Source: Vulcanimicrobiota bacterium (GTDB lineage Bacteria > Vulcanimicrobiota > Vulcanimicrobiia > Vulcanimicrobiales > Vulcanimicrobiaceae). From it: 64,000 nucleotides of DNA. The position numbers and the translations under genes are program-made. The notes beneath the pieces were generated by a model. That model made no database searches, had not been told where the DNA came from, and saw only the letters and a list, made by a program, of their open reading frames with translations. Positions within the stretch are counted from its first letter, which is position 1. Every line of letters starts with the position of its first letter. Below, one piece after another: positions 19,968 through 44,547 of this stretch. The stretch is taken from assembly GCA_003168375.1 (NCBI GenBank), contig PMSI01000003.1, forward strand, positions 434,001 through 498,000. Reading direction: 5' to 3'.

Positions 19968-20129
19968 GGAGCTCCTCCGAATGGTGCTACGAACCGTCCG
20001 GTGCCCCGCCTCTAGCGCGCCTATGCTGCCTCGCCGCTGATGCCGGGCGCTGCGCCTCGTAGGCTATCAGCGCGGCCCGTCAAGTTCGCCGTTCATCCGA
20101 TCGGAGGCGGACGAGAAGGAGCAGCGTTG

Positions 20130-21341
20130 TCACTCGACGATGATCGGTGACTTGCCACGGTCTCGTAGGGCCCGGTAGAGAAAAGCCGCAACTGTCACAA
20201 TGGTGGTAAGAATGCCGAGCCACTTCGAAAGTTGGTCGCCGTCTAAGAGCGTTCCCTGCACTTTGATCGGCACTTCCAATGTCGCCACGTACGTTTGCCT
20301 GTCCGGATGACCCACATCCTTCGGATCGCTGACACGGTATAGCACGAGGAAGATCGTCCTGGCACCGGATTCTCTACTTGTCGCCGACCAACGCCAAGCC
20401 GCCGAAGAAACGACGGTGACCTTTTGCATTACGACCGCCAATCTATCGCGAAGCGGGTTGGAGCCTCTGAGGCTGTGGAGTCCATGCGGGTTTGGCAGGT
20501 CGCCGTAGCATGCCAGCTCGGGCGCGTCGACGGCTCCAACATTGATCTGCAGCGTCTTTTCGAGGATGTCTTGTTCGGTAGGCTTTGTCTTAGGGGCGTA
20601 GCTCTTGAGAAACGTTGAACTAACGGCCAAGGGGCTATCATTGATTACATCCACGTCAAACCCCCGCGCCACGAGACGCGGTACCACGTACGTCTCGCGC
20701 GGGATGGCGCGGCGGTAGTCGTTTGAATAAGGGTACGCGCCGAGCGAGTCCATTAGCGTTTGATACGTCATTTGCCGCGATCCAAAAAATGGATTTCGCG
20801 CGACATAAACGCACGTTGTAATGCTGCGCTCAGCACCCAACGTCCACTTCTGTTGGGTGATGGCTTTGAGGCCGATTTCGAGCTCTTCGTTATCGCCTAC
20901 ATTCAACACGACCGCGTCGACGGCGCGTTGCGGCTGCGGTAGCAAGAGGGATACGATGAAAAAAGCGCCCAGAGCCGTGATCACATAGCTGGTTGCTAGA
21001 TAACCCGGATTCCGATAGTGCACCCAAGGGGTACGCTTAGCTGCGAGTCGAACCAGCTGGAGGCTGACTGCTGCCGTCACCGAGCCGACGGTTATCACTA
21101 ACCACAGATGATCGCTTCCTTCCGTCGACAGGCGGTCGTTGAACGCGAAATAGAACGCGCTCAGGGCAACGCCGTAGAGAACGGCGACGTCTATGTACCT
21201 AGAGCGCTTTTTCGCAACGCGCGCGCGCTTTTCGAGTCGATTGAGGCCAGTCGCAAATGATAACGCTACGTTCGTTGCTGAAATCGGCAGGGAGAGTAGC
21301 ACGAGAATCATGGCGAGCTCCCAGGCCCAATCTTGCCACAT
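20130..21341 (-). CDS. Hypothetical multi-pass membrane protein on a lower-GC segment
   Basis: 403 aa, not recognised. N-terminal half has four hydrophobic segments (MILVLLSLPISATNVALSF, IDVAVLYGVALSAFYFAF, LWLVITVGSVTAAVSL, YVITALGAFFIVSLLL). A soluble, probably extracytoplasmic domain of ~220 residues follows, then a C-terminal TM (LGILTTIVTVAAFLYRAL) and a basic tail. Base composition is clearly below the neighbours (near 53% by eye) and codon use is different, which suggests transfer. No partner gene or integrase is next to it. Confidence 0.55.
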   Translation of the reverse strand: MWQDWAWELAMILVLLSLPISATNVALSFATGLNRLEKRARVAKKRSRYIDVAVLYGVALSAFYFAFNDRLSTEGSDHLWLVITVGSVTAAVSLQLVRLAAKRTPWVHYRNPGYLATSYVITALGAFFIVSLLLPQPQRAVDAVVLNVGDNEELEIGLKAITQQKWTLGAERSITTCVYVARNPFFGSRQMTYQTLMDSLGAYPYSNDYRRAIPRETYVVPRLVARGFDVDVINDSPLAVSSTFLKSYAPKTKPTEQDILEKTLQINVGAVDAPELACYGDLPNPHGLHSLRGSNPLRDRLAVVMQKVTVVSSAAWRWSATSRESGARTIFLVLYRVSDPKDVGHPDRQTYVATLEVPIKVQGTLLDGDQLSKWLGILTTIVTVAAFLYRALRDRGKSPIIVE

Positions 21342-21809
21342 GCGATAGCCTCACGGACGACGACGATGTGTGTCCAGTATAGAACTCACAGTTACGCCAG
21401 GTCGTCGTGCCTTGGCCGCCGGGCAATGGCGTGCGGTCTGACCGGGCGCCCAGTCGACTTTCCGGTACGCTTGGTTACTTCTTGCTCGCCGCGCCGTCGT
21501 CGGCGCCCGGCGTAGAACGCGCCCTCGGGGAGCCGTCGGTGTCGACCGCCGGTTTGGGACCGGCTTCGGCACCTATTAAGGAGCCGCTTTCTAGGTTCAG
21601 AGTGCCCTCCTTTTTTGCCTTGGGGCGATGTCAGACGTCGCGATGTATCCCGTTGCTTGGACACCACGTGCGACGGGTGTTGGCTCGCGGCCGTCGCGTC
21701 CATCACGGCCTTCCTGTCCTCGACACCGACAGGGGTTACCATAGCTTGCGGCGGTTCATTTTAATTGAAGAAGATGAAGACGAGTAGCAGTCATCTGAAA
21801 TGCGCTTTC
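21342..21809. other. Non-coding stretch with GH15 scrap
   Basis: No gene seen. Composition is mixed. Around 21503-21550 the plus strand (ggcgtagaacgcgccctcgg.. gtcggtgtcga) resembles the 3' part of the GH15 gene at 22277-22330; translated on the minus strand the scrap reads RHRRLPEGAFYAG against DTDGLPPGEGAFYACG in the intact gene. Short ORFs here have no coding character. Confidence 0.5.
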
Positions 21810-22022
21810 TGGTCGTCGTCTAGCTAAGCGACGTCGTTCGCGGTAAGGAGTCGGGCTTTGAAGCCGGCCCGCGGCGGTCAGATAAGACTTGATGTCGGCA
21901 TAGTAGGGCTCAAACGCGGTCGCGATCGCGTGCAGAGGTGGATTCTTAGGCGGTGGCCTGCGACTGTGCGCGCGCGTTTTTGACGAAGATCGGGATCAGG
22001 ATCCCCGCCAGAACGGCTATGC
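21810..22022 (-). pseudogene. Truncated, frameshifted pilin copy
   Basis: About 210 bp align with 19690-19905 of the intact pilin. On the minus strand: IAVLAGILIPIFVKNARAQSQATA then a stop/frameshift, continuing HAIATAFEPYYADIKSYLTAAG against AILAGILIPNFVNARSQAQTAA.. RAIATALELYYADNQVYPTAAG. Both the prepilin leader and the C-terminal half are missing. The 5' break abuts the GH15 stop codon. Confidence 0.75.
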
Positions 22023-31164: not shown

Positions 31165-32613
31165 TCAGTACGCGCCGAGCATCTCGAGGCGGAAGCCGCT
31201 CGGGAAGAGCTGGTCGTAGCGCGTGCGGAACTGCGGATACGCGTCACCGTAGACTTGGCTTTCGGAGGCGGCGCTGGTTCGCCATACCGCGTCGTAGCGA
31301 ACGCTCCCCGCGACGACGTACGGCTGTAGGAGTTTCAGGCGCCATCCTTGCTTCCACAGCGCGTCGTACTTCGTGCGGAAGTCCTGATACGTCGAGCGAT
31401 ATACTTGGGTCTCGTTCTCGCTGCTCGGACGCCAGACCGCATCGTAGCGCACGTCGCCGCCAACAACGTACGGCTGCAACAGTTTCAGGCGCCATCCCTT
31501 CCCCCAGAGGTCGTCGTAGCGCTTGCGAAAGTCGGCGTACGCGTAGCCGTAAACCTGGGTCTCGTTCTCGCTGCTCGGACGCCAGACCGCGTCGTACAGA
31601 ACCTGGCCGCCGACGACGTGCGGCTGCAGCATCGCGAGCCGGAGCCCCTGCTGCCACAACGCATCGTACTTCGCGCGGTACGTCGCGTACGGCACGCCGT
31701 AGATCTGCACCTCGGCACCGCCGGCGGGACGCCACACGGCGTTGTAATACACCGTGTCGTTGACGACGTACGGCTGCAGGATGTGCAGGCGCCAGCCGAC
31801 GTTCCAGAGTTCATCGTACCGCGCGCGATAGGAGGCATATGACGCGCCGCTCATTTGGATCTCCGGATCCGCGCTCGTCGTCCACACCGCGGTGAACGAT
31901 CCGGGCGGCGGCGCCGAAGACGTCGTGCTATACCCGGTCGTCGAGCACGAGTGCGTGCTGTTGTCGAACGCGCCCGGGATCGTGCCGAACCAGAGCGGGA
32001 AGCTCGTGCTGCACGGATCGACCGCTTCGCTCCACGCATTGTGCGCCGGCTTGAGGCCGAGCGCCGGGTCGGTCGCGGCTTCGAAGATCTTGTGCGCGCT
32101 GACGAGCAGCCACGGCGAGCAGCCCTGCGTCACGACGGCCCAATACTTGCCGACCGCTTCCGCGGCGTGGTACGCGCAGTGCTCCTTCACGGTCGAGCCG
32201 TTCGGAAGGAGCACCATGATGAGGCGATTTGTCGCGTATGGCGGAAGCTTGCCGGCGTTCTGAGCGGCGTGGATGATGGTGACGAGGCCGGGGCCGTCGG
32301 TGGTGATCGGCGTGGAGGGCGCCGTCTGCAGGACCGCGCTCGCGACGCCGGCCGACGTGACGCCGTATTGCACCAGTGTCGGCTCCGAGTTCGCGGGCGC
32401 GTTCGCTCCGGAGATATACTGCGCCAGCCCGACCAGATATTTCTGATGAGCGTCCACGTCCGCCGGCTTCCAGGGCCCGTAGTAGAAGGGTACGATCTGG
32501 AAGGACTTGAGCACTGGGCCGCCCTGGAACGCGAGATCCGCCTGGGCAGGTTTGGGAACGGCGAGTGCACACGCTGCGATGCACACCGCCGCGATCACCG
32601 GAAAGAGTTTCAT
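31165..32613 (-). CDS. Secreted protein with five C-terminal tandem repeats (BTRD1-type)
   Basis: 482 aa from ATG 32613 (AGGAG upstream). Signal peptide (FPVIAAVCIAACALAVPKPAQA). N-terminal ~220-residue domain with GGPVLKSFQIVPFYYGPW, CAYHAAEAVGKYWAVVTQGC and HKIFEAATDPALG, which may be a peptidase-like or hypothetical domain. Residues ~250-482 hold five ~47-residue repeats of the form YDAVWRP..ETQVYG..Y.DFR.RYD.LW..GWRL..LQPYV, which I associate with Pfam 'bacterial tandem repeat domain 1'. Repeats 3 and 4 are almost identical in DNA. Probably cell-surface or extracellular. Confidence 0.75.
   Translation of the reverse strand: MKLFPVIAAVCIAACALAVPKPAQADLAFQGGPVLKSFQIVPFYYGPWKPADVDAHQKYLVGLAQYISGANAPANSEPTLVQYGVTSAGVASAVLQTAPSTPITTDGPGLVTIIHAAQNAGKLPPYATNRLIMVLLPNGSTVKEHCAYHAAEAVGKYWAVVTQGCSPWLLVSAHKIFEAATDPALGLKPAHNAWSEAVDPCSTSFPLWFGTIPGAFDNSTHSCSTTGYSTTSSAPPPGSFTAVWTTSADPEIQMSGASYASYRARYDELWNVGWRLHILQPYVVNDTVYYNAVWRPAGGAEVQIYGVPYATYRAKYDALWQQGLRLAMLQPHVVGGQVLYDAVWRPSSENETQVYGYAYADFRKRYDDLWGKGWRLKLLQPYVVGGDVRYDAVWRPSSENETQVYRSTYQDFRTKYDALWKQGWRLKLLQPYVVAGSVRYDAVWRTSAASESQVYGDAYPQFRTRYDQLFPSGFRLEMLGAY
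31190..31915 (-). repeat. Five tandem ~141-150-bp coding repeats
   Basis: Each unit encodes a VWRP-(Q)VYG-RYDxLW-GWRLxxLQPYVV block. Segments at 31411-31450 and 31558-31598 share a run starting gtctcgttctcgctgctcgg with one or two differences, which points to recent unit duplication or gene conversion, while the outer units are more diverged. Confidence 0.8.
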
Positions 32614-32663
32614 GTGCTGGCTCCTGTGGAGTCGGTTCGTGGAGGTAGCATGGCGCACCGGCG

Positions 32664-32706
32664 TTACGGGCGGCTTACGTTCGCCCGTCCGTAAGTGGCT
32701 CGTAAG
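32664..32706. promoter_or_regulatory. Regularly spaced TTACG/CGTAA half-sites in a divergent promoter region
   Basis: Four half-sites: TTACG 32664, TTACG 32675, CGTAA 32690, CGTAA 32701. The two on each side repeat with an 11-nt period and the pairs face each other as an inverted repeat. Direct repeats with an 11-nt period are the usual footprint of OmpR/PhoB-type winged-helix regulators. The cluster lies 50-115 bp from both divergent starts (32613 and 32778). Confidence 0.5.
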
Positions 32707-32777
32707 GGCGGCGCCCGGCGGCGGGGACGCTCGCCGAAGAGGAGAGGCGGGATCGTGCGTGAGATTTCCACCGCACG

Positions 32778-34067
32778 ATGCACGACGTCCCGCACGAGCA
32801 CGAATCGATCCTCGAGGTCGAGGCACCCCGGGTGAAGTTCGGGCGCGGTGCGATCGACGAGGTCGGGCCCGAAGCGGCCACGGCCGGGCTGCGGCGCGTC
32901 GCGCTGTTCACCGATCCGCGCCTCGCGAAGCTCGAGTTCGTCGAGCGCGCACGCCGTTCGCTGCGGAACGCGGGCGTCGACGTCGCCGAGTTCGACCGCG
33001 TGCGGATCGAGCCGACCGACGGCTCGTTCCGCGACGCCGCCGCGTTCGCGCAGGATGCGCGCGTCGACGGCTACGTCTCGGTCGGCGGCGGTTCGGTGAT
33101 CGACACAGCCAAGGCGGCGAACCTCTACGCCACCTATCCGGCGCCGTTCGAACGCTACGTCAACGCGCCGCTCGGCGAAGGCGCCGCGGTACCCGGCCCG
33201 TTGGCGCCGCACATCGCGTGCCCGACGACCTCGGGGACCGGGAGCGAGTGCACCGGGATCGCGATCTTCGACTTCGAGGCGCATGAGGTGAAGACCGGGA
33301 TCGCTTCGCGGCGTCTTCGCCCGACGCTCGGGATCGTCGATCCCGACGCGACGCGCACGCTCCCGGCGACGGTCGTCGCGTCGAGCGGGTTCGACGTCCT
33401 CGCGCACGCGCTCGAGTCGTACACGGCGCGGCCGTACACGGACCGGCCGCGTCCGGCAAGCCCGCTGGCGCGCCCGCTCTCGCAGGGGGCGAACCCGTAC
33501 AGCGATCTCGCGTGCGCCGAAGCGCTGCGTCTCCTCGGCGACAATCTCGAACGTGCCGTGCACGATGCCGGCGACGACGAGGCGCGCGAGGCGGTGATGT
33601 ACGCCGCCACGCTGGCGGGGATCGGCTTCGGAAACGCGGGCGTGCACGTGCCGCACGGAATGGCGTACGCCGTCGCCGGGCTCGTGCACGGCTACCGCCC
33701 GCCGGAGTACGACGCGGACCACGCGATGGTGCCGCACGGTATGTCGGTGATCGTCTCCGCGCCGTCGGTCGCGCGGTTCACCGCGTCCGCGGCACCGGAG
33801 AAACACCGCCGCATCGCGATGCTGCTCGGGGCCGAGCGCACCAAGCACGATGACGAGATCGGCGACGCGCTCGCCGTCGCGCTGGGGCGGCTGATGCGCG
33901 CGACGGGGATGCCGAACGGCTTGCGTGCCCTCGGGTACGCGGACGCCGACGTTCCGCGGCTGGTCGCCGGCGCATTCGCGCAGCAGCGGCTGCTCGCGAA
34001 CGCACCGCGACGGGTCGGCGAAGAAGAGCTCGCCGGACTCTTCGCCGGCGCGATGACGGTCTGGTAG
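32778..34067 (+). CDS. Hydroxyacid-oxoacid transhydrogenase (iron-containing alcohol dehydrogenase family)
   Basis: 429 aa. Dinucleotide motif [19 protein letters not shown] near 96-115, [14 protein letters not shown] near 150, and metal ligands in [25 protein letters not shown] and HAMVPHGMS. The insertion [19 protein letters not shown] and the C-terminal [24 protein letters not shown] match the ADHFE1/HOT branch, which transfers hydride between 4-hydroxybutyrate and 2-oxoglutarate. Cytosolic. A link with KorAB through 2-oxoglutarate is possible but not shown. Confidence 0.85.
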
Positions 34068-35302: not shown

Positions 35303-36859
35303 ATGCGACGTCTGCTCCGGTTGGCCGGGGTCGTTGTCGTCGCCGTACTCGCAGTGGCGCGTCCGGCGGCGGCGCATCCGCTCGGGAATTTCACGGTCAA
35401 CCACCTGACGCGCATCACGCTCGACCGTGACGGGCTCCACGTCCGCTACGTCCTCGATCTGGCCGAGATCCCGGCCTTCACGCTGGACCGATCGCTCGAG
35501 CCGCACGGAACGCCCTCGCAGACGACGCTCGACCGGTGGGCGGCCGCGCACGCGCGTGAGATCGCGCCGCAACTCGCGCTGAACGTCGACGGCCGCGACG
35601 TCGCGCTGGTGCCCGTGACATCGACCGTTCGCACCAGGCCCGGTGCCGGCGGTCTGCCGACAGTGTATTTCACGGCCACGTACGCCGCGGCGATCGGCGC
35701 GGGGCTCCATCGCCTGGCGTATCGCGATCGAACCGAAGTGGGGCGACTCGGTTGGAAAGACGTCGTCACCGGAGCGGCGCGCGAACCCACCGACGAACTG
35801 CGTTCGTACCCAAACGCGCTGATCGGCTCGCCGCGGGCGCGCACCGCGCTCGCGGCGCACCTCGATGCCGAGGGCCGCGTGGTCGTCGACACCGCCGCAA
35901 CCGACGCGTCGGATGCCGCGGAGCCGGCGAGCGCTCTGCTCGCACGGTCGAATGCCCTCTCCGACGTCCTCGCCAAAGGCGCGGGCGATCCGCTGGTCGT
36001 CATCGGCGCGCTGCTGCTCGCGATCGCGCTCGGAGCGCTGCATGCGCTCGAGCCCGGTCACGGCAAGACCCTCCTCGCCGTCTCGCTCGTCGGCGCGCGC
36101 GCCACGCCGCGGCAGGCGCTCGTGCTCGCCTCCGCTTTGACGGTCGCCCACACGGCCGGCGTGCTCGCGCTCGGCCTCGTCGTGTTGGCGGCGACGAACT
36201 GGATCCTCCCCGAGCAGGTCTATCCGTGGATCACGCTGGCGTCGGGGGCCGTCGTGACGATCATCGGCGGTCGCGCCCTCGCGCGCGAACTCCGCCGCCG
36301 CCTGCCGTTCGCACACACCCACGAACACGCCCACGCGCTCGCGCACGCCCATGCGCACGATCACGTTCACGAGCAAGGCCACGCTCACGACCACCTCGAC
36401 GACGAGGCGCACGCCCGCGCGCACGCGATCCCGGGGACCGCGCCGCTGACGTTCCGCAGCGCCGTCGTCGCCGCGGCGAGCGGGAACATCGCTCCATGTC
36501 CGGCCGCGCTGGTCGTGCTGCTCGCCGCCATCGCGTTGCACCGCGTCGGCTACGGACTCGCCTTGATCGTCGCGTTCAGCGTCGGGCTCGCCGCAGTTCT
36601 GACCGTACTCGGAATCGCCGTCGTGCGGAGCGCCGCCTGGCTCGTCGCTCGCCCTCAGTTCGACCGCGCGGCGCGCTTCGCGCCGCTGGTCACATCGTTC
36701 GTCATCGCGACGCTCGGGGCGGTGATGGTGGGTCAAGGGTTCGCCGCGCAGGGAATCGGCGTGCCGGTCCCCGCCGTCGCGGGGCTCGTGCTGCTCGCGA
36801 TCGTCGGCTACGCACTCGCCTGGCACCAGCATCAGCGGCCGGCGGAGGTCCACGCGTGA
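35303..36859 (+). CDS. RcnA-like nickel/cobalt transporter with extracytoplasmic N-domain and His-rich loop
   Basis: 518 aa. Signal-like segment, then ~190 residues of soluble domain (HPLGNFTVNHLTRITLDRDGLHVRYVLDLAEIPAF, recognised in pieces such as NFTVNHLTR). The membrane part starts ~225 with GALHALEPGHGKTLLA, a metal-binding HxxxPxHGK motif, followed by AHTAGVLALGL, a loop with about 17 histidines (residues 338-375) and GNIAPCPAALVVLL. Probably exports or imports Ni2+/Co2+ across the inner membrane. Stop overlaps the next transporter's GTG. Confidence 0.85.
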   Translation: MRRLLRLAGVVVVAVLAVARPAAAHPLGNFTVNHLTRITLDRDGLHVRYVLDLAEIPAFTLDRSLEPHGTPSQTTLDRWAAAHAREIAPQLALNVDGRDVALVPVTSTVRTRPGAGGLPTVYFTATYAAAIGAGLHRLAYRDRTEVGRLGWKDVVTGAAREPTDELRSYPNALIGSPRARTALAAHLDAEGRVVVDTAATDASDAAEPASALLARSNALSDVLAKGAGDPLVVIGALLLAIALGALHALEPGHGKTLLAVSLVGARATPRQALVLASALTVAHTAGVLALGLVVLAATNWILPEQVYPWITLASGAVVTIIGGRALARELRRRLPFAHTHEHAHALAHAHAHDHVHEQGHAHDHLDDEAHARAHAIPGTAPLTFRSAVVAAASGNIAPCPAALVVLLAAIALHRVGYGLALIVAFSVGLAAVLTVLGIAVVRSAAWLVARPQFDRAARFAPLVTSFVIATLGAVMVGQGFAAQGIGVPVPAVAGLVLLAIVGYALAWHQHQRPAEVHA

Positions 36860-37662
36860 TCGCCCTCGGCGCGTTCACCGTCTTCGTCCTCGGCATGCGC
36901 CACGGAGCGGATCCCGACCACCTCGCGGCGATCGACAACGTGACGCGAAACGCCTACGTGAAGACGCCGCTGCTCAGCCGCTTCGTCGGCACGTTCTTTG
37001 CCGGCGGGCACACCGTGATGGTCCTCGCGATCTCCGCGCTGGTCGGCTTGCTCGGAACGCGCTTCGCAGCACACGGCGCCGCGATCGAGCTGATCGGCAC
37101 CTGGGTCTCGATCGTCGTGCTGCTGCTCGTCGCCGCGATGAACGTGCGCACGCTGCGAACCGGCGGCACGCGGGTCGCAGGCGCGAAGACGTCGCTGCTG
37201 CCGAAACGTTTGCGCGAGGGGTCGAGCGCACTGCTCGCGATACCGATCGGACTGCTCTTCGGCTTCGGATTCGAGACGTCGAGCCAGATCGCGGCGTACG
37301 CGGCCGCGTTCGGTGCGGGTCACGGGATCGCCGGAGCGTTGATCGTCGGCGGGATGTTCTCGGTGGGAATGATCTGCACGGATACGCTGGACTCGGTCCT
37401 CGTCCACCGGCTGATCTCGTATCGCTCCGACCGCTTGCCCGCGATCATGCGCGTGTGGATCGCCGCCGTCACGGCGCTTGCGGTGATCGTCGCACTCTAC
37501 GAGATCGCGCAAGTGCTCGGCTGGAAGTCGCCGGTCGGCGACCTGACGCTCAGCGCCGCGCTCGTGCTCGCGCTGCTCAGCGTCTTCACGTACCTGTTCT
37601 TCCAAACGCGCCGCCGCGCGCTCGATGCGCCTTCAGGTGCAGCAGCGCCGGTCGATCTCTAA
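36856..37662 (+). CDS. NiCoT-family nickel/cobalt permease (HoxN/NixA-like)
   Basis: 268 aa from GTG 36856. Signature RHGADPDHLAAIDNVTR in TM2 (the Hx4DH metal-recognition motif), FAGGHTVMV, and LFGFGFETSSQIA as the second NiCoT motif. About seven TM segments. It overlaps the RcnA-like gene by 4 nt, so two different Ni/Co transporters are made together; one may feed and one relieve the cell. Confidence 0.88.
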   Translation: MIALGAFTVFVLGMRHGADPDHLAAIDNVTRNAYVKTPLLSRFVGTFFAGGHTVMVLAISALVGLLGTRFAAHGAAIELIGTWVSIVVLLLVAAMNVRTLRTGGTRVAGAKTSLLPKRLREGSSALLAIPIGLLFGFGFETSSQIAAYAAAFGAGHGIAGALIVGGMFSVGMICTDTLDSVLVHRLISYRSDRLPAIMRVWIAAVTALAVIVALYEIAQVLGWKSPVGDLTLSAALVLALLSVFTYLFFQTRRRALDAPSGAAAPVDL

Positions 37663-37690
37663 CTGCGGCAATCCAAAGAACGCGCGCATC

Positions 37691-37707
37691 CGTCTACCGT
37701 GTAGACG
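37691..37707 (+). promoter_or_regulatory. Perfect 7-bp inverted repeat before the DUF4331 gene
   Basis: cgtctac-cgt-gtagacg, 28 nt after the NiCoT stop and about 45 nt before the DUF4331 start. Followed by cacccttt, so it could be a weak terminator or a metal-regulator operator. Confidence 0.35.
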
Positions 37708-37751
37708 CACCCTTTCGAGCGTCTCTCCCGAACCACCGAGGAGATCGCATC

Positions 37752-38525
37752 ATGACATCACGCTCCGGCGCGCTCGGAAGCGGCTTGGCCGCGCTCGCGC
37801 TGGTCCTCACGGCCGTCCTGTACAACGTGCTGCCCGTTCGCGGCTCGGACCATCAGGACTCGCCGACGGTCGTCGCGCGACCCGCGGCCGACATTACCGA
37901 CGTCTTCGTCTATCCCGCCGGCGACAATCCGAGCAACGTCGTGCTGCAGATGGACGTCAGCCCGCTCTTGACGCCCGCCAACGCGTCGCAGGCCGCGCTC
38001 GATCCGGCCGTGCTGTATCAGTTCAAGATCGCGCACGGAACGAGCGCCGGCCAAGAGGACATGGCGATCCAGGTCCAGGCGATCGGCGCCGGACCGACGC
38101 AGACGGTCGCCGTCTACGGACCCTTCGCGCCCGTCCCGGGAACGGTATCCACCGCCGGGCCGCTCTCCGGCACCGTCGCGTTCAACTCGACGAGCGCCGC
38201 CGCGCTCGCGAACGGGATGCGCGTCTTCGCAGGACCGCGCGCCGATCCGTTCTTCTTCGACCTGTTCCAATTCTTCAGTTTCCTGCCCGACCGCAACTAC
38301 CAGACGGCGGGGGCGTCGCCGAAGGCGCCGTTCTCGTTCAAGTTCCCGGCTCCGGCGGGCGCGTTTGCGAGCTGCGTACAGGGGACTCCGAACGACGCGC
38401 TCTCGAGCAACTCGTTCAACGTGCTCTCGATCGTGATCGAGGCTCCGAGGTCGCTGATCGCTCCGGCCTCCGGTTCTCAGGTGATCCATCTCTGGGCGAC
38501 CACCAGCACCGTCAGCGGAACATAG
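37752..38525 (+). CDS. DUF4331 protein, N-terminal half
   Basis: 257 aa, ATG 37752 with GAGGAG upstream. Signal/anchor segment (LGSGLAALALVLTAVLYNVL), then RGSDHQDSPTVVARPAADITDVFVYP, the diagnostic start of DUF4331 (SSHREAP..D.AADITDLYAF), and FAGPRADPFFFDLFQFF. It ends where usual DUF4331 proteins continue with a second domain; that domain is encoded by the next gene. Exported; function not known. Confidence 0.8.
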   Translation: MTSRSGALGSGLAALALVLTAVLYNVLPVRGSDHQDSPTVVARPAADITDVFVYPAGDNPSNVVLQMDVSPLLTPANASQAALDPAVLYQFKIAHGTSAGQEDMAIQVQAIGAGPTQTVAVYGPFAPVPGTVSTAGPLSGTVAFNSTSAAALANGMRVFAGPRADPFFFDLFQFFSFLPDRNYQTAGASPKAPFSFKFPAPAGAFASCVQGTPNDALSSNSFNVLSIVIEAPRSLIAPASGSQVIHLWATTSTVSGT

Positions 38526-38533
38526 GAGAGACC

Positions 38534-39130
38534 ATGCGACAATCCATCCTCAGCTTCGTCGCGGTCTACGCCGTCGTGCTCTGCACGTCGAGCTGCAACG
38601 GCGGTTCGACCTCCGTCCCGAACCTGAACACGGGAAGCCAGGCGCAGTTCAAACAGATCGAACGCCTGGGGCGTCCGGCGGTGAAAGAGCTGTTCCAGCA
38701 GTTCGCCAATCACGACGGAACCAACAAAACCGCGCCCTGGCAGCTGCCGGTCTCCGGACAGACGCTCTATCAAGAGATCGGTTCGTTCACCACCAGCGTC
38801 GCCGGACGCGACGCGGCGCACGCCGCGACGCTGCAGGCGATCCTAATCCCCGACGAGATCGCGGCCGATCTCTCGAAGTCCGGTTCCGCCGCGTATCTCG
38901 GCGTCGAGACCGGTGGCGCTACCGGCGGGACGTTCGGGGGCCGCGGGCTGCCGGACGACGTGATCGACATCTCGCTCGGCGCGGTGTTCGGCAACACACT
39001 CAGCGCGCTCGGCCTCATTCCGGACGACGGCAAGGAGTCGCCGTGCCTGACCACCGACAACGTTTCGCAGAAGAACGCGCAGGACAACGTCACGCCGGCC
39101 GTCTTCCCGTATGGCGGGGCGCCGCACTAA
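38534..39130 (+). CDS. Lipoprotein equivalent to the C-terminal half of DUF4331
   Basis: 198 aa, ATG 38534 with AGGAG. Lipobox LCTSSC|N. Contains RLGRPAVKELFQQF, LIPDEIAADLS, GGRGLPDDVIDISL, which resemble the RxGxPLVNEV, xPDxL and GGRxLxDDVVDxxL blocks in the second half of DUF4331 proteins. So the family domain appears split between a signal-peptide protein and a lipoprotein. Its 3' end overlaps the next start by 20 nt. Confidence 0.75.
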   Translation: MRQSILSFVAVYAVVLCTSSCNGGSTSVPNLNTGSQAQFKQIERLGRPAVKELFQQFANHDGTNKTAPWQLPVSGQTLYQEIGSFTTSVAGRDAAHAATLQAILIPDEIAADLSKSGSAAYLGVETGGATGGTFGGRGLPDDVIDISLGAVFGNTLSALGLIPDDGKESPCLTTDNVSQKNAQDNVTPAVFPYGGAPH

Positions 39131-40334
39131 GCGCCGGCTTTCCGCGGTAACGGTCATCGCCGCGAGCGCGCTGGTCGCGCTCGCGGCCTGGCCGGCATAC
39201 CTGAACGGGAAGGCGCCGGTTGCAGCCGCTGAGGCACCCGCCGCGGCGGTCAAGCCCGACTGGCGCGTCCGCGACGCCAGCATCGCGTTTCTCGAATCGC
39301 GCGCCGGACGCGTGCGGGGCGACATGCTGACGCCGCGCATGCTCTCGGGGGAATACGTGCAGCGCTACCGCGAACGCGGCGACATCGGTGATGTCGTGCG
39401 TGCCGAACAGGCGGCGCGCATCTCACTCGTCGCTCAGCCGCGCGGTAACATCGCCGGCGAGGCCGCGCTGGCCGGCGCGCTGCTCACGTTGCACCGCTTC
39501 CGCGAAGCGAAGGCGGCGATCGCTCGCGCTCGCATCTGGCTGCGCGACGATCCCGGCTTGGCGGCGGAAGAAGCAGCGCTCGACCTGGAGCTGGGCGACG
39601 TCGCGGGCGCACGCCGAATCGCGGGAGCGTATCGCGACGATCCGGCGTTCGACGTCGTCACGGCGCGGCTCGAAGAGGAGACCGGCGGTCTCGCCGATGC
39701 TCGGGCCCACGTCGAACGCGCGATGCGCCGGGCCGATGCGATCTACGACACGCCGGCGGAGCGCCGCGCCTGGCTGCACGCCCGCGCCGCGGAACTCGCG
39801 CTCGAGGCCGGCGACACGGCCGCGGCCGGCCGCGCGACGGACGAGGCGATCGCGATCTTTCCGGCGCACCTGCGCGCGCTCACGATCGCCGTCCGGGTGG
39901 CGCTCGCGAACGGAGATACCGCGACCGCAGAAGCCGCCGCGCAGCGCGCCGTCGCCGTGCAGCCGAACCCCGAGGTGCTCGGACTGCTCGGAGACATCCA
40001 AGCCGCGCGTGGGGAGACCGCCGCCGCCGCGGCGAGCCGTGACGTGCTCCTTGCGGTGGCGCGGATCGGCGACGCGCTGCACGTGAACGATCGCTTGATC
40101 GCGCTCTGGGAGGCCGATCACGGCGTCCGGGTCGACCACGCCTACGGCATCGCCCGGCGCGATCTCGCGGTGCGGGACGACATCTATGCCGAGGACGCCG
40201 TGGCCTGGACGGCTGCGCGTTCCGGCCGGTGGGGAATCGCCCGGCGCGCGATCGCCAAGGCGTTGCGCTACGGGACCCAAGATCCCGCGATCCGCCGGCA
40301 CGCCGCGGCGATCGCGGCCCACCTTGGCGCCTAG
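39111..40334 (+). CDS. TPR-repeat protein with N-terminal membrane anchor
   Basis: 407 aa, starting inside the preceding gene. N-terminal TM/signal (VTVIAASALVALAAWPAYL). Remaining ~350 residues are helical repeats (e.g. GALLTLHRFREAKAAIARARIWL, ARAAELALEAGDTAAAGRATDEAI, RAVAVQPNPEVLGLLGDIQAARG). TPR proteins are often found next to DUF4331 genes, which supports a joint periplasmic complex; details unknown. Confidence 0.75.
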   Translation: MAGRRTKRRLSAVTVIAASALVALAAWPAYLNGKAPVAAAEAPAAAVKPDWRVRDASIAFLESRAGRVRGDMLTPRMLSGEYVQRYRERGDIGDVVRAEQAARISLVAQPRGNIAGEAALAGALLTLHRFREAKAAIARARIWLRDDPGLAAEEAALDLELGDVAGARRIAGAYRDDPAFDVVTARLEEETGGLADARAHVERAMRRADAIYDTPAERRAWLHARAAELALEAGDTAAAGRATDEAIAIFPAHLRALTIAVRVALANGDTATAEAAAQRAVAVQPNPEVLGLLGDIQAARGETAAAAASRDVLLAVARIGDALHVNDRLIALWEADHGVRVDHAYGIARRDLAVRDDIYAEDAVAWTAARSGRWGIARRAIAKALRYGTQDPAIRRHAAAIAAHLGA

Positions 40335-40382
40335 CGGATCTCCGGTACGCGGATTCGCGCGACCGGCCTGGAATGAGGCACC

Positions 40383-40712
40383 ATGCGCCGCCGCATTCTG
40401 AACACGATGAAGCGGCTCGAGATCATCCTCGAGCGCGACCAAGTCGACGCCGTCCGCGGCGTCCTGCAAGAGCACGCGACCGGCTACACGATCATTCCGG
40501 GCTGCACGGGATTCGGCCACCATGGGAAACGCGATGGCGATCTCGCCCTGCTCGTGACCGTGGTGACCCGCGACCACGCCGACCCGATCCTCGACGCGGT
40601 GCTGCCGCTGCTCGACCGCCGCTCCGGGGTCGTGCTGATCACCGAGGTGCAGGTGGTCCGCGGCGAGCACTTCGTCCCCGAGCTGAGGGACAAAGTCGCG
40701 CACCGGCACTGA
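40383..40712 (+). CDS. PII-like regulatory protein
   Basis: 109 aa (101 if ATG 40407 is used). MKRLEIILERDQVDAVRGVLQEHATGYTIIPGCTGFGHHG matches the first half of PII folds in short blocks (KRLEIIL, YTIIPGCTGFG), with LVTVVTRDHADPILDAVLPLL and VLITEVQVVRGEHF following. The T-loop is short and lacks the uridylylated Tyr, placing it among PII-like proteins that sense nucleotides or bicarbonate/metal status next to transporters. Confidence 0.75.
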   Translation: MRRRILNTMKRLEIILERDQVDAVRGVLQEHATGYTIIPGCTGFGHHGKRDGDLALLVTVVTRDHADPILDAVLPLLDRRSGVVLITEVQVVRGEHFVPELRDKVAHRH

Positions 40713-40721
40713 ACTCGTGCG

Positions 40722-41495
40722 CTACTCGCCCGTCCAGTGCGGGCGGCGCTTGTCGAGAAACGCCGTGAGGCCTTCGCGGAAGTCATGGCTTCCGTAACAG
40801 AGCCGGATGAGATCCTCGTCGTCGGGGAGCGGCGTCGCCGACCGCAGCCGGCGAACCATTTCCTTGCTGGCGCGCAGCGTCAGCGGCGCCAGCGTGGCGA
40901 TCGCTTCGGCCTGCTCCTGCGCGCGCGCGTGCAGGCTTGCCGCGTCGGAGACGACTTCGGTGAGAAAACCGAGCCTGTGCGCGTCGTCCGCGTCGAGCAG
41001 CACGCCGCTGAGCAGCAACGCCTTGACCTTGTCGAGACCGATGAGCTCGCCGACGCGCGCGACGTTGCGCAGGGAGATGCAGTTTCCCAGCGTGCGCGCG
41101 ATCGGGACGCCGATGCGCGTGCCGGGTGCGCCGATCCGCAGGTCGCACGCCGCCGCGATGCTGACGCCGCCACCGGTGCATGCCCCCGCGATCGCGGCGA
41201 TCGCCGGGACGGGGAGCGCTTCGAGCGCGTCGACCACGCCGTGCATGCGCGCCTCGTACGCAACGCCGTCGTCGGCGCCGCGGAACGCGCGGAACTCGGC
41301 GATGTCGGTGCCGGCGACGAACGCCGCGTCGCCCGAACCGGTCAACACCACCGCGCGCAGCGAAGGATCGGCCGCGAGCTCGACGGTGATCTCGCGCAGC
41401 CGCTGCCACATCGCGAAGGTCATCGCGTTGCGCGCTTGCGGCCGGTCGAAGACGACCCAGACGATGCCGCGCTCGCGGCGCTCGACGCGGATCAT
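40722..41495 (-). CDS. Enoyl-CoA hydratase/isomerase
   Basis: 257 aa crotonase fold. NAMTFAMW, oxyanion motifs FVAGTDIAEF near 68 and ACTGGGVSIAAACDLRIG near 107-124. The usual acidic pair of hydratases is not obvious: the second position region reads GNCISLRNVARVGE, so isomerase or lyase activity is possible. Overlaps the CoA-transferase stop by 4 nt. Confidence 0.85.
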   Translation of the reverse strand: MIRVERRERGIVWVVFDRPQARNAMTFAMWQRLREITVELAADPSLRAVVLTGSGDAAFVAGTDIAEFRAFRGADDGVAYEARMHGVVDALEALPVPAIAAIAGACTGGGVSIAAACDLRIGAPGTRIGVPIARTLGNCISLRNVARVGELIGLDKVKALLLSGVLLDADDAHRLGFLTEVVSDAASLHARAQEQAEAIATLAPLTLRASKEMVRRLRSATPLPDDEDLIRLCYGSHDFREGLTAFLDKRRPHWTGE

Positions 41496-42694
41496 GCCTG
41501 CACCGCGACGCCGTCGCGGAAGAGTCCGTCGAGCTCCTCGTCCGAGACGCCGATCCCGCGCAGCACCTCCGCGGAATCGCCGCCGAGCAGCGGTCCCGCG
41601 CGCTCGATGCGCGCCGGCGTCGCCGAGAACCGCATCGGCGAACCGACTTGTCGCACTGCGCCGAGCGTCGGGTGCGGTGCGTCGACGAAAAAGTTGCGCG
41701 CGTTCAGATGCGGGTCGTTGAACACGCGATCGAACGTGTGGATCGGCCCGCACGGCAGGCCGGCGGCGCCCAGCCGCTCGGTCCAGTAGGCCGACGGTTC
41801 CCTGGTCGTGACGGCCTCGATGGCGGCGATCAGGGCGTCGCGGTTCTCCAGGCGGCGCTCGTTGGCGGAAAACCGTTCGTCGTGAGTCAGTTCGTCGAGC
41901 CCGAACACCGCGCAGCAGCGGAGCCAATGCGCTTGCGTGTTGGCGCCGAAGGTGAACCAGCCGTCGGCCGAGCGCACGGCCTGGTACGGCGCGATCGCTT
42001 GATGCGCCGAGCCGGACGGCTTCGGAATCTCGCCGGTCGCGAAGTAACGCCCCGCCTCCCAAACCGCGAGCGAGACCGCCGACTCGAGCAGCGAAACGTC
42101 GATGAACTGACCGTGTCCGTCGCGGTCGCGCGCGCGCAGTGCGGCGAGTACCGCGATCGTCGCATAGAGCGCGCAGGTGAGGTCGGCGATCGGGACGCCG
42201 ACCTTCACCGGGGGCGCACCCTGCTCGCCGGTGATGCTCATCAGCCCCGACATCGCCTGCGCGATGATATCGAGCCCCGCCAGGTCCGCGTACGGACCGT
42301 CGTTGCCGAAGCCGGTCGCGGCCAGGTAGATCAGCCGCGGCGACTCCGCCGAGAGCACGCCGTACCCGAGGCCCAATCCGTCCATCGTGCCGGGACGCAG
42401 GTTCTCGATCACGACGTCGGCGCTCGCCGCTAGGCGCCGGAACAGCGCTTTCCCCTCGGGGGCCTTGAGGTCGAGCGCGAGGCTGCGTTTGTTGCGGTTG
42501 AGCCGGATGAAATTCGAGCTCTCGCCACCCAGAAACGGCCCGGCCGCGCGGGTCAGGTCGCCGCCGCTTGGATTCTCGACCTTCACGACCTCGGCGCCCA
42601 GATCGGCGAGCTGCATCCCGCAGAACGGGACGGCCATGAAGTTGCCGACCTCGACGACGCGCACGCCGTGCAGCGGTGGTAGAGCGGAAGCCAT
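41492..42694 (-). CDS. CaiB/BaiF family CoA-transferase
   Basis: 400 aa class III CoA-transferase. LHGVRVVEVGNFMAVPFCGMQLADLGAEVVKVE in blocks (VRVVEVG, LADLGAEVVKVE), RNKRSLALDLK, NLRPGTMDGLG, and the catalytic Asp in AGLDIIAQAMSGLM near 145. C-terminal GDSAEVLRGIGVSDEELDGL is typical. Transfers CoA between carboxylic acids; coupled with the downstream hydratase it suggests degradation of an organic acid. Confidence 0.92.
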   Translation of the reverse strand: MASALPPLHGVRVVEVGNFMAVPFCGMQLADLGAEVVKVENPSGGDLTRAAGPFLGGESSNFIRLNRNKRSLALDLKAPEGKALFRRLAASADVVIENLRPGTMDGLGLGYGVLSAESPRLIYLAATGFGNDGPYADLAGLDIIAQAMSGLMSITGEQGAPPVKVGVPIADLTCALYATIAVLAALRARDRDGHGQFIDVSLLESAVSLAVWEAGRYFATGEIPKPSGSAHQAIAPYQAVRSADGWFTFGANTQAHWLRCCAVFGLDELTHDERFSANERRLENRDALIAAIEAVTTREPSAYWTERLGAAGLPCGPIHTFDRVFNDPHLNARNFFVDAPHPTLGAVRQVGSPMRFSATPARIERAGPLLGGDSAEVLRGIGVSDEELDGLFRDGVAVQA

Positions 42695-43812: not shown

Positions 43813-44547
43813 ATGACGGCCCCGCTGCTGGTCGCGACGGTCGCCGCGGTCGGCGTCCTGCATACCCTCGTCCCCGATCATTGGGCGCCGATCGTCGTCG
43901 TCGGCCGGCAGCAGGGCTGGTCCGTCGTCCGCACGGCACGGACGGCAGCGATTGCCGGTTTTGGCCATGTTGCATCGACGCTGTTTCTTGGGCTCATCCT
44001 CTGGGCAGTCGGTGCCTCGCTGGCCGTCCGCTACGGGCATGCAGTGAACGTGGTCGCCGCGGTCGCACTGATCGCGTTTGGAGCGTGGATCGGCTACTCG
44101 GGCTGGCGCGAGCTGCGCGGGGATCACGATCACGGTCATCCGCACATGGCGCATGCCCACGTCCACCGTCACGCAGACGCGACGCAGCACATCCACTGGC
44201 ACGAGCACCATGTTGAGGACTGGCACGCGGTCGAGGGCGGGGCCGCCGTCCTGCATGAACACGACCATGCTGTAGCCGGAAGGACCGCACTCCTTTTCAT
44301 CCTCGGCTCGTCGCCGATGATCGAGGGGATCCCGGCGTTCTTCGCGGCGTCGACGTACGGACCGGGGCTGATCGGCGTGATGGCCGGCGTCTTCGCGCTC
44401 TCGACCATCGCCACATACGTCGCCGCGTCGTCCTTCGCGATCGCCGGACTGCAGCGCGTCTCGCTCGGACCGCTCGAACGGTACGGCGAGGTCCTGAGCG
44501 GCGCCTTCGTCGCGCTCGTGGGAGTCTACGCCCTGGTCACGGCATGA
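43813..44547 (+). CDS. UreH-like membrane metal transporter with His-rich loop
   Basis: 244 aa, GAGGG 8 nt before ATG. Six hydrophobic segments; VLHTLVPDHWAPIVVVGRQ in TM1 and GFGHVASTLFLGLI in TM2 resemble the HGxDxDH-type metal motifs of UreH/NiCoT relatives. A loop at residues 103-155 contains about 19 His. Likely Ni/Co or similar divalent-metal transport. It is a third transporter of this superfamily in the window. Confidence 0.75.
   Translation: MTAPLLVATVAAVGVLHTLVPDHWAPIVVVGRQQGWSVVRTARTAAIAGFGHVASTLFLGLILWAVGASLAVRYGHAVNVVAAVALIAFGAWIGYSGWRELRGDHDHGHPHMAHAHVHRHADATQHIHWHEHHVEDWHAVEGGAAVLHEHDHAVAGRTALLFILGSSPMIEGIPAFFAASTYGPGLIGVMAGVFALSTIATYVAASSFAIAGLQRVSLGPLERYGEVLSGAFVALVGVYALVTA

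Follow-up and report, generated by a model that had tools for sequence, protein, structure and literature searches.

An apparently undescribed bacterial gene set that joins DUF4331 and TPR proteins to nickel/cobalt-type permeases and probably captures metal in the envelope

What might a bacterium do with six closely packed genes that encode two nickel/cobalt-type permeases, a DUF4331 protein in two pieces, a TPR protein and a PII-like protein? DUF4331 is annotated in many bacteria without a function. The genes in question lie in a stretch of 64,000 nucleotides (hereafter the window; contig PMSI01000003.1, positions 434,001 to 498,000) from a Vulcanimicrobiota bacterium whose relatives carry the label Candidatus Eremiobacterota (WPS-2). 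A preliminary description of the window had read positions 35303-40712 as six same-strand genes with overlaps or short gaps, and had taken their context to suggest an envelope system, or one that handles metal in the periplasm, under the control of a PII-type signal. The gene calls themselves hold: an ORF check finds six intact reading frames in the same direction on the + strand, with a third-position GC of 0.85-0.90 and gaps of -4, +89, +8, -20 and +48 bases between consecutive genes, and the Pfam labels agree. The features are as follows.

35303-36859, + strand: RcnA-like NicO permease with an N-terminal periplasmic domain (518 aa; Pfam NicO, E 1.2e-8)
35375-35923, + strand: anglerase-like N-terminal domain of that permease (predicted mature start HPLGNFTVNH, His1 codon at 35375-35377; Foldseek match to 9gce)
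36305-36427, + strand: His-rich loop between transmembrane segments of the RcnA-like permease (14 His in 41 residues)
36856-37662, + strand: second permease, NiCoT-type (268 aa; Pfam NicO, E 1.6e-18)
36901-36921, + strand: NiCoT signature HX4DH (HGADPDH) of the second permease, read from the sequence
37752-38525, + strand: DUF4331 N-half, predicted secreted (257 aa; PF14224, E 2.4e-25; 21 split homologues)
37845-37853, + strand: Ser-Asp-His, predicted mature N-terminus of DUF4331 and ATCUN-type site (motif-based)
38534-39130, + strand: DUF4331 C-half, predicted lipoprotein (198 aa; PF14224, E 5.1e-13, profile positions 245-421)
38594-38596, + strand: lipobox cysteine, Cys21, of the DUF4331 C-half (invariant in 22 homologues)
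39111-40334, + strand: membrane-anchored TPR protein (407 aa; Pfam TPR_19, E 4e-6)
40383-40712, + strand: PII-like protein, a genus-level neighbour outside the conserved core (109 aa; P-II, E 2.7e-12)

To what extent do these genes stay together in other genomes? Among the 20 related loci scanned, the order RcnA-like permease, NiCoT-type permease, DUF4331 N-half, DUF4331 C-half, TPR protein is kept at identities down to about 40%, with departures in which the TPR gene precedes the DUF4331 pair (L049), the permeases lie on the opposite strand (L055), or the second permease is different or missing. The RcnA-like permease could be aligned with 16 homologues from the class, with further homologues in cyanobacteria and Streptomyces, and the TPR protein with 18 at 57% mean column identity. 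In the window genome and 40 relatives, searched genome-wide, a NicO gene lies within 5 kb of DUF4331 in 27 of 51 loci, where 0.29 would be expected, and 34 of 35 TPR genes have DUF4331 as a neighbour; this clustering is far above chance. By our own count in an 80-locus scan, a strong RcnA-like match is found nearby in 53 loci. Several DUF4331 loci with no NicO gene nearby sit at contig edges, and most of the others hold fused paralogues, often with a TPR gene alone. The window genome itself (G000) also carries a full-length, fused paralogue of DUF4331 that is paired with a TPR gene of its own and lacks a NicO neighbour (L004, G000:C7, ~145400-147904). In two Antarctic metagenome bins assigned to different families the entire cassette is nearly identical (L044, G032:C2, and L045, G014:C39), which suggests recent transfer or cross-binning.

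The first five genes are a conserved core, and the PII-like gene is left out of it. Its product is closest, among solved chains, to 5d4n (E 4.4e-8). The gene adjoins the cassette in L037, L040 and L042 and not in L036, L038, L039 and L041 (three of the seven other loci of the genus with readable downstream sequence), and none of the 20 loci scanned shows it with the cassette outside the genus. The proposed control by a PII-type signal is therefore not supported.

The preliminary description had also named a way in which it could fail, namely DUF4331 genes elsewhere that show no association with metal transporters. The association is upheld in most lineages; it breaks down in roseobacters and in many fused Eremiobacterota paralogues. 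A scan of genomes and plasmids recovers the trio of DUF4331, TPR protein and permease in Cyanobacteria, Actinomycetota and Pseudomonadota. Nostoc, Fortiea, Phormidesmis and other cyanobacteria carry a fused DUF4331, a TPR protein and a NicO permease with the same N-domain; Streptomycetaceae have DUF4331, TPR and a "nickel transporter" (NicO), with sortases close by; and in alpha-, beta- and gammaproteobacteria DUF4331 is accompanied by a TPR-matching protein (the match is weak in the alphaproteobacterium) and by a HupE/UreJ-2 protein that bears a predicted N-terminal His. Armatimonadetes loci start alike, with a split DUF4331 and a TPR gene, and continue with CbiM-CbiQ and an ABC ATPase (L108, a single locus), with HupE/UreJ-2 (L081) or with NicO (L093). 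A canonical NiCoT stands beside DUF4331 in L086, and in L127, from a bin whose label "Gemmatimonadetes" is, like other such labels, the depositors' own, split DUF4331 and TPR are followed by DUF6702. No transporter is listed near the DUF4331-TPR pairs of Bacteroidota (L143) and Miltoncostaea (L135). In roseobacters, where DUF4331 adjoins type II secretion genes (plasmid loci L140, L141, L142 and L145 carry it beside a type II secretion gene set), no transporter neighbour was found, and the protein may be secreted out of the cell. That different nickel/cobalt transporter families occupy the same place beside DUF4331 speaks for a metal role more strongly than anything else in the gene context.

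Why should DUF4331 come in two pieces? The pair had been recognised as an N-half and a lipoprotein with the C-half; Pfam confirms both (90.1 and 49.5 bits, above the gathering cut-off of 27), and other members of the class have the same two-gene arrangement. A frameshift or assembly error is ruled out by this recurrence, by the start and lipobox that the C-half has of its own and by the existence of two different break points. A ribosome-binding-like sequence of its own precedes the C-half gene, which encodes a signal peptide and a Cys kept without exception in 22 homologues. Mapped onto the confident model of a fused homologue (pLDDT 89.2, pTM 0.87), the late break point of Eremiobacterota, part of Armatimonadetes and L127 lies between strands 247-257 and 267-273, in the linker. 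The Fimbriimonadia-type set must be broken ahead of strand 247-257, since its C-half bears the "GVWxTTS" strand. Placing split and fused states on a tree takes at least four to five changes, and the C-half carries a lipoprotein signal in both split types. We infer that the two halves work together in a single complex, which the C-half ties to a membrane.

What metal might be involved? There are two clues: an anglerase-like fold of the permease N-domain and the histidine at position 3 of DUF4331. The RcnA-like label of the first permease stands with its NicO match, but the count of about 17 histidines does not, since there are 28, including the 14 of the loop. The closest curated model is NF007454, the RcnA-type nickel/cobalt efflux family (E 1.4e-34; 119.7 bits, below its cut-off of 195). 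The second permease carries HX4DH in TM2 and scores 76.3 bits against TIGR00802, whose cut-off is 333; several relatives have a canonical NiCoT as a separate gene. All 56 unique permease N-termini show HPLGNF with Ala at -1, a motif-based fit to signal peptidase I cleavage, and a 27-sequence alignment of the N-domain shows His1, Asn5, Asn9, Asp28 and Glu31 to be invariant. No Pfam family matches this domain, and sequence searches found no solved relative. The AlphaFold model of the entire permease is of moderate quality (pLDDT 69.6), with the N-domain mostly above 80, and the top Foldseek match of the N-domain model is 9gce (probability 1.00, TM-score by target 0.43, at a borderline E of 1.2e-3). 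Judging from the model, the two domains are likely to be related. 9GCE shows the Ang-1 domain of a HupE/UreJ-2 protein with copper bound, held in the crystal by His1 (PMC12537917). Published affinities are 74 nM for Cu and 220 nM for Ni, with both Ang-1 and Ang-2 preferring Cu, and the second ligand is Asn41 or Asp33 (PMC12537917); in the permease N-domain, the invariant Asp28 and Glu31 and the near-invariant His10 are candidates for that part.

The second clue lies at the start of DUF4331. With cleavage sites here and in the permease placed by motif and not by a predictor, the mature protein is predicted to begin with SDH in 86 of 96 unique N-termini, the -1 residue being Ala, Gly or Ser in nearly all, which again fits signal peptidase I; Ser-Ser-His takes its place in Pseudomonadota, Actinomycetota and Bacteroidota. 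Two divergent copies with no signal peptide have the motif straight after the start codon, as Ser-Asp-His in Rhizobium and, after a GTG start, as Ser-Asn-His in Streptomyces, so that removal of the initiator Met would yield the same X-X-His terminus. A minority subgroup lacks His3 and has FDL, FDI or FNV, and one such copy (L049) lies beside both permeases. NH2-X-X-His at a free terminus constitutes the ATCUN motif for Cu(II) and Ni(II) (PMC12509749). The predicted mature terminus of DUF4331 has this form, with no Pro at positions 1-2, and His3 is accordingly predicted, from sequence, to be an ATCUN-type Ni/Cu site. Sequence searches found no solved relative of DUF4331 and its model has no structural match in the PDB at E <1e-3, so the case for a metal role draws on the N-terminus and on context.

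Our preferred explanation, to which we give a probability of roughly 55%, is that the five-gene core is an envelope module for metal capture and uptake. It builds on established gene content, order, recurrence, conserved N-termini and predicted folds, and from these infers metal binding, contacts between the proteins, relay, uptake direction and nickel as the main metal. DUF4331 would be exported and, once its signal peptide is cleaved, Ser-Asp-His would form an ATCUN site that chelates Ni(II) or Cu(II). The protein being divided at an inter-domain linker, the exported N-half would bear the metal-binding N-terminus and the lipoprotein C-half would anchor the pair to a membrane; the TPR protein would serve as a membrane-tethered scaffold. 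The domain with the N-terminal His would take the metal and hand it to the NicO channel of its own RcnA-like permease, and the NiCoT-type permease would provide a second route through the inner membrane. The idea of a periplasmic metal-handling or envelope system is well supported by neighbourhoods in several phyla, interchangeable Ni/Co transporters and predicted N-terminal metal sites on two proteins. A wider proposal, on balance doubtful, is that DUF4331 is a widespread metal-catcher, be it secreted, lipid-anchored or sortase-anchored: its X-X-His would chelate Ni or Cu on the outer side of the inner membrane, and DUF4331, with its TPR partner, would pass the metal to a permease of anglerase type at the permease's own N-terminal His. 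If true, several phyla would share a two-step relay of metal from N-terminus to N-terminus, and Eremiobacterota and Armatimonadota would have it split over two proteins.

The direction of transport can be read in two ways. RcnA proteins are Ni/Co exporters; HupE/UreJ-2 and CbiM are importer families. Likeness to RcnA suggests export, while the NiCoT, HupE and CbiM partners suggest import. One might therefore imagine that the RcnA-like permease expels excess Ni or Co to the periplasm, where DUF4331 binds it or carries it outwards and so protects the cell. An anchored or secreted DUF4331 could serve as a sponge, the loop is His-rich as in RcnA, and the closest curated model is, as noted, an efflux family. 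However, the neighbouring permease bears the NiCoT uptake signature, the replacement partners are importers, and no gene for a metal-sensing repressor is recognised beside the cassette in the window. We consider import considerably more probable than export, and efflux with sequestration unlikely, albeit the likeliest of the alternatives.

Slightly further down the scale of probability comes copper acquisition, in which the module would supply envelope or cytoplasmic cuproenzymes and NicO and HupE-like permeases would carry copper. Ni (or Co) is what the transporter families suggest; the anglerase structure puts Cu first and Ni second. For copper, the matching crystal holds Cu, Ang-1 and Ang-2 prefer Cu, ATCUN sites bind Cu(II) tightly, and urease and NiFe hydrogenase are missing from many cassette genomes. 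Yet every permease type beside DUF4331 belongs to a Ni/Co family, CbiM-CbiQ included, and no copper-specific neighbour was seen. Our best reading is that nickel is more likely than copper to be the module's metal. Least probable of all is an enzymatic, adhesive or structural role of DUF4331 at the surface, with the transporters nearby for another need such as a metal cofactor: it would suit the links to type II secretion in roseobacters and to sortases in Streptomyces, and the lack of a fold match to known metal carriers, but leaves aside that N-terminal X-X-His is conserved even where there is no signal peptide and that the metal permeases are exchangeable.

Is there an enzyme that the uptake module would serve? 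Under our own classification 24 genomes are cassette-positive; urease or a true NiFe hydrogenase occurs in 11 of them, and the other 13 lack both (Fisher p 0.096), so no known nickel enzyme explains the module. Nickel supply to hydrogenase fails in the window genome, which has no true NiFe hydrogenase and shows just a weak match to the first 67 positions; urease is present there but absent from many genomes with the cassette. A supply of cobalt for B12 can be set aside, CobN being missing from the window genome and most relatives. LarA has no match in the window genome and no pattern among genomes, and Ni-SOD has none in any genome searched, the controls likewise giving no match. As for control, no Rfam riboswitch matches the window or seven homologous loci, a lax search giving weak matches at chance level, and no regulator of the cassette was found. 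In Pseudoalteromonas (L139, 4597-5813) a sigma-70 family (ECF-like) sigma factor and an anti-sigma gene lie directly upstream of DUF4331-TPR-HupE, and are a possible regulator of it.

How does the gene set compare with known systems? Anglerase domains have been proposed to feed metal to their permease (Franco Cairo et al. 2025, PMC12537917). The window permease resembles Ang-1 and Ang-2 (PMC12537917; PDB 9GCE) in its export signal, in an invariant His at the predicted mature N-terminus, in being a Ni-type permease with a fused N-domain and probably in its fold, an Ig-like beta-sandwich in which helices are predicted between strands 2 and 3. The two anglerases are, however, fused to HupE/UreJ-2 (PF13795), whereas the window permease is NicO/RcnA-like, with an N-domain that has no Pfam family and finds 9GCE by fold only; HupE/UreJ-2 is seen only in homologous clusters of other phyla. 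Since this fusion is a published defining feature, we say that the window system works like an anglerase and do not class it as one. The second permease has HX4DH and a NicO match in common with NiCoT (HoxN-NixA) but is far under the TIGR00802 cut-off; the first shares the NicO core and the His-rich loop with RcnA but stays under the model cut-off, has an extra N-domain of 180 residues and no recognised neighbouring RcnR. DUF6702, a published Ni sequesterase, and DUF4198 (PMC12537917) are likewise secreted binders, encoded near metal genes and with a chelating site predicted at the N-terminus, yet with His at position 1, whereas DUF4331 has it at position 3 and a model with no significant PDB match. 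With the ATCUN motif DUF4331 shares NH2-X-X-His, in its case as a sequence prediction.

Literature searches that find DUF4198 and DUF6702 (subscription literature being outside their reach) returned no paper naming DUF4331 or PF14224, and the main text of the anglerase paper (PMC12537917) does not mention DUF4331. The anglerase idea dates from a 2025 publication; in the searchable literature, neither the NicO fusion nor the partnership of DUF4331 with TPR appears to have been described. In the window lies one version of a gene set that is widespread among bacteria, apparently undescribed, and probably serves to capture nickel (or copper) in the envelope and deliver it to a transporter in the membrane. 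DUF4331 gains its first strong functional clue, the link that several phyla show to a TPR protein and to exchangeable Ni/Co permeases, along with an exact predicted metal site, His3 of the mature protein; the anglerase idea is extended to NicO permeases, and anglerases gain candidate upstream partners.

Several other features of the window deserve a note. A third, weaker NicO-like gene, His-rich (21 His) and with no Pfam match, lies 3.1 kb downstream at 43813-44547 (+); a relative in G007 gives a weak NicO score, and L039 and L042 hold homologues. At 41713-41788 (-) ARAGORN places a tRNA-Gly(gcc) within the reading frame of a CoA-transferase family III gene on the same strand (41492-42694), probably a false call or an overlap. 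The gene at 31165-32826 (-) encodes a protein with four BTRD1 (polyglycine hydrolase-like) repeats, and G+C falls to 0.587 at 20001-22000, compared with about 0.69 around it.
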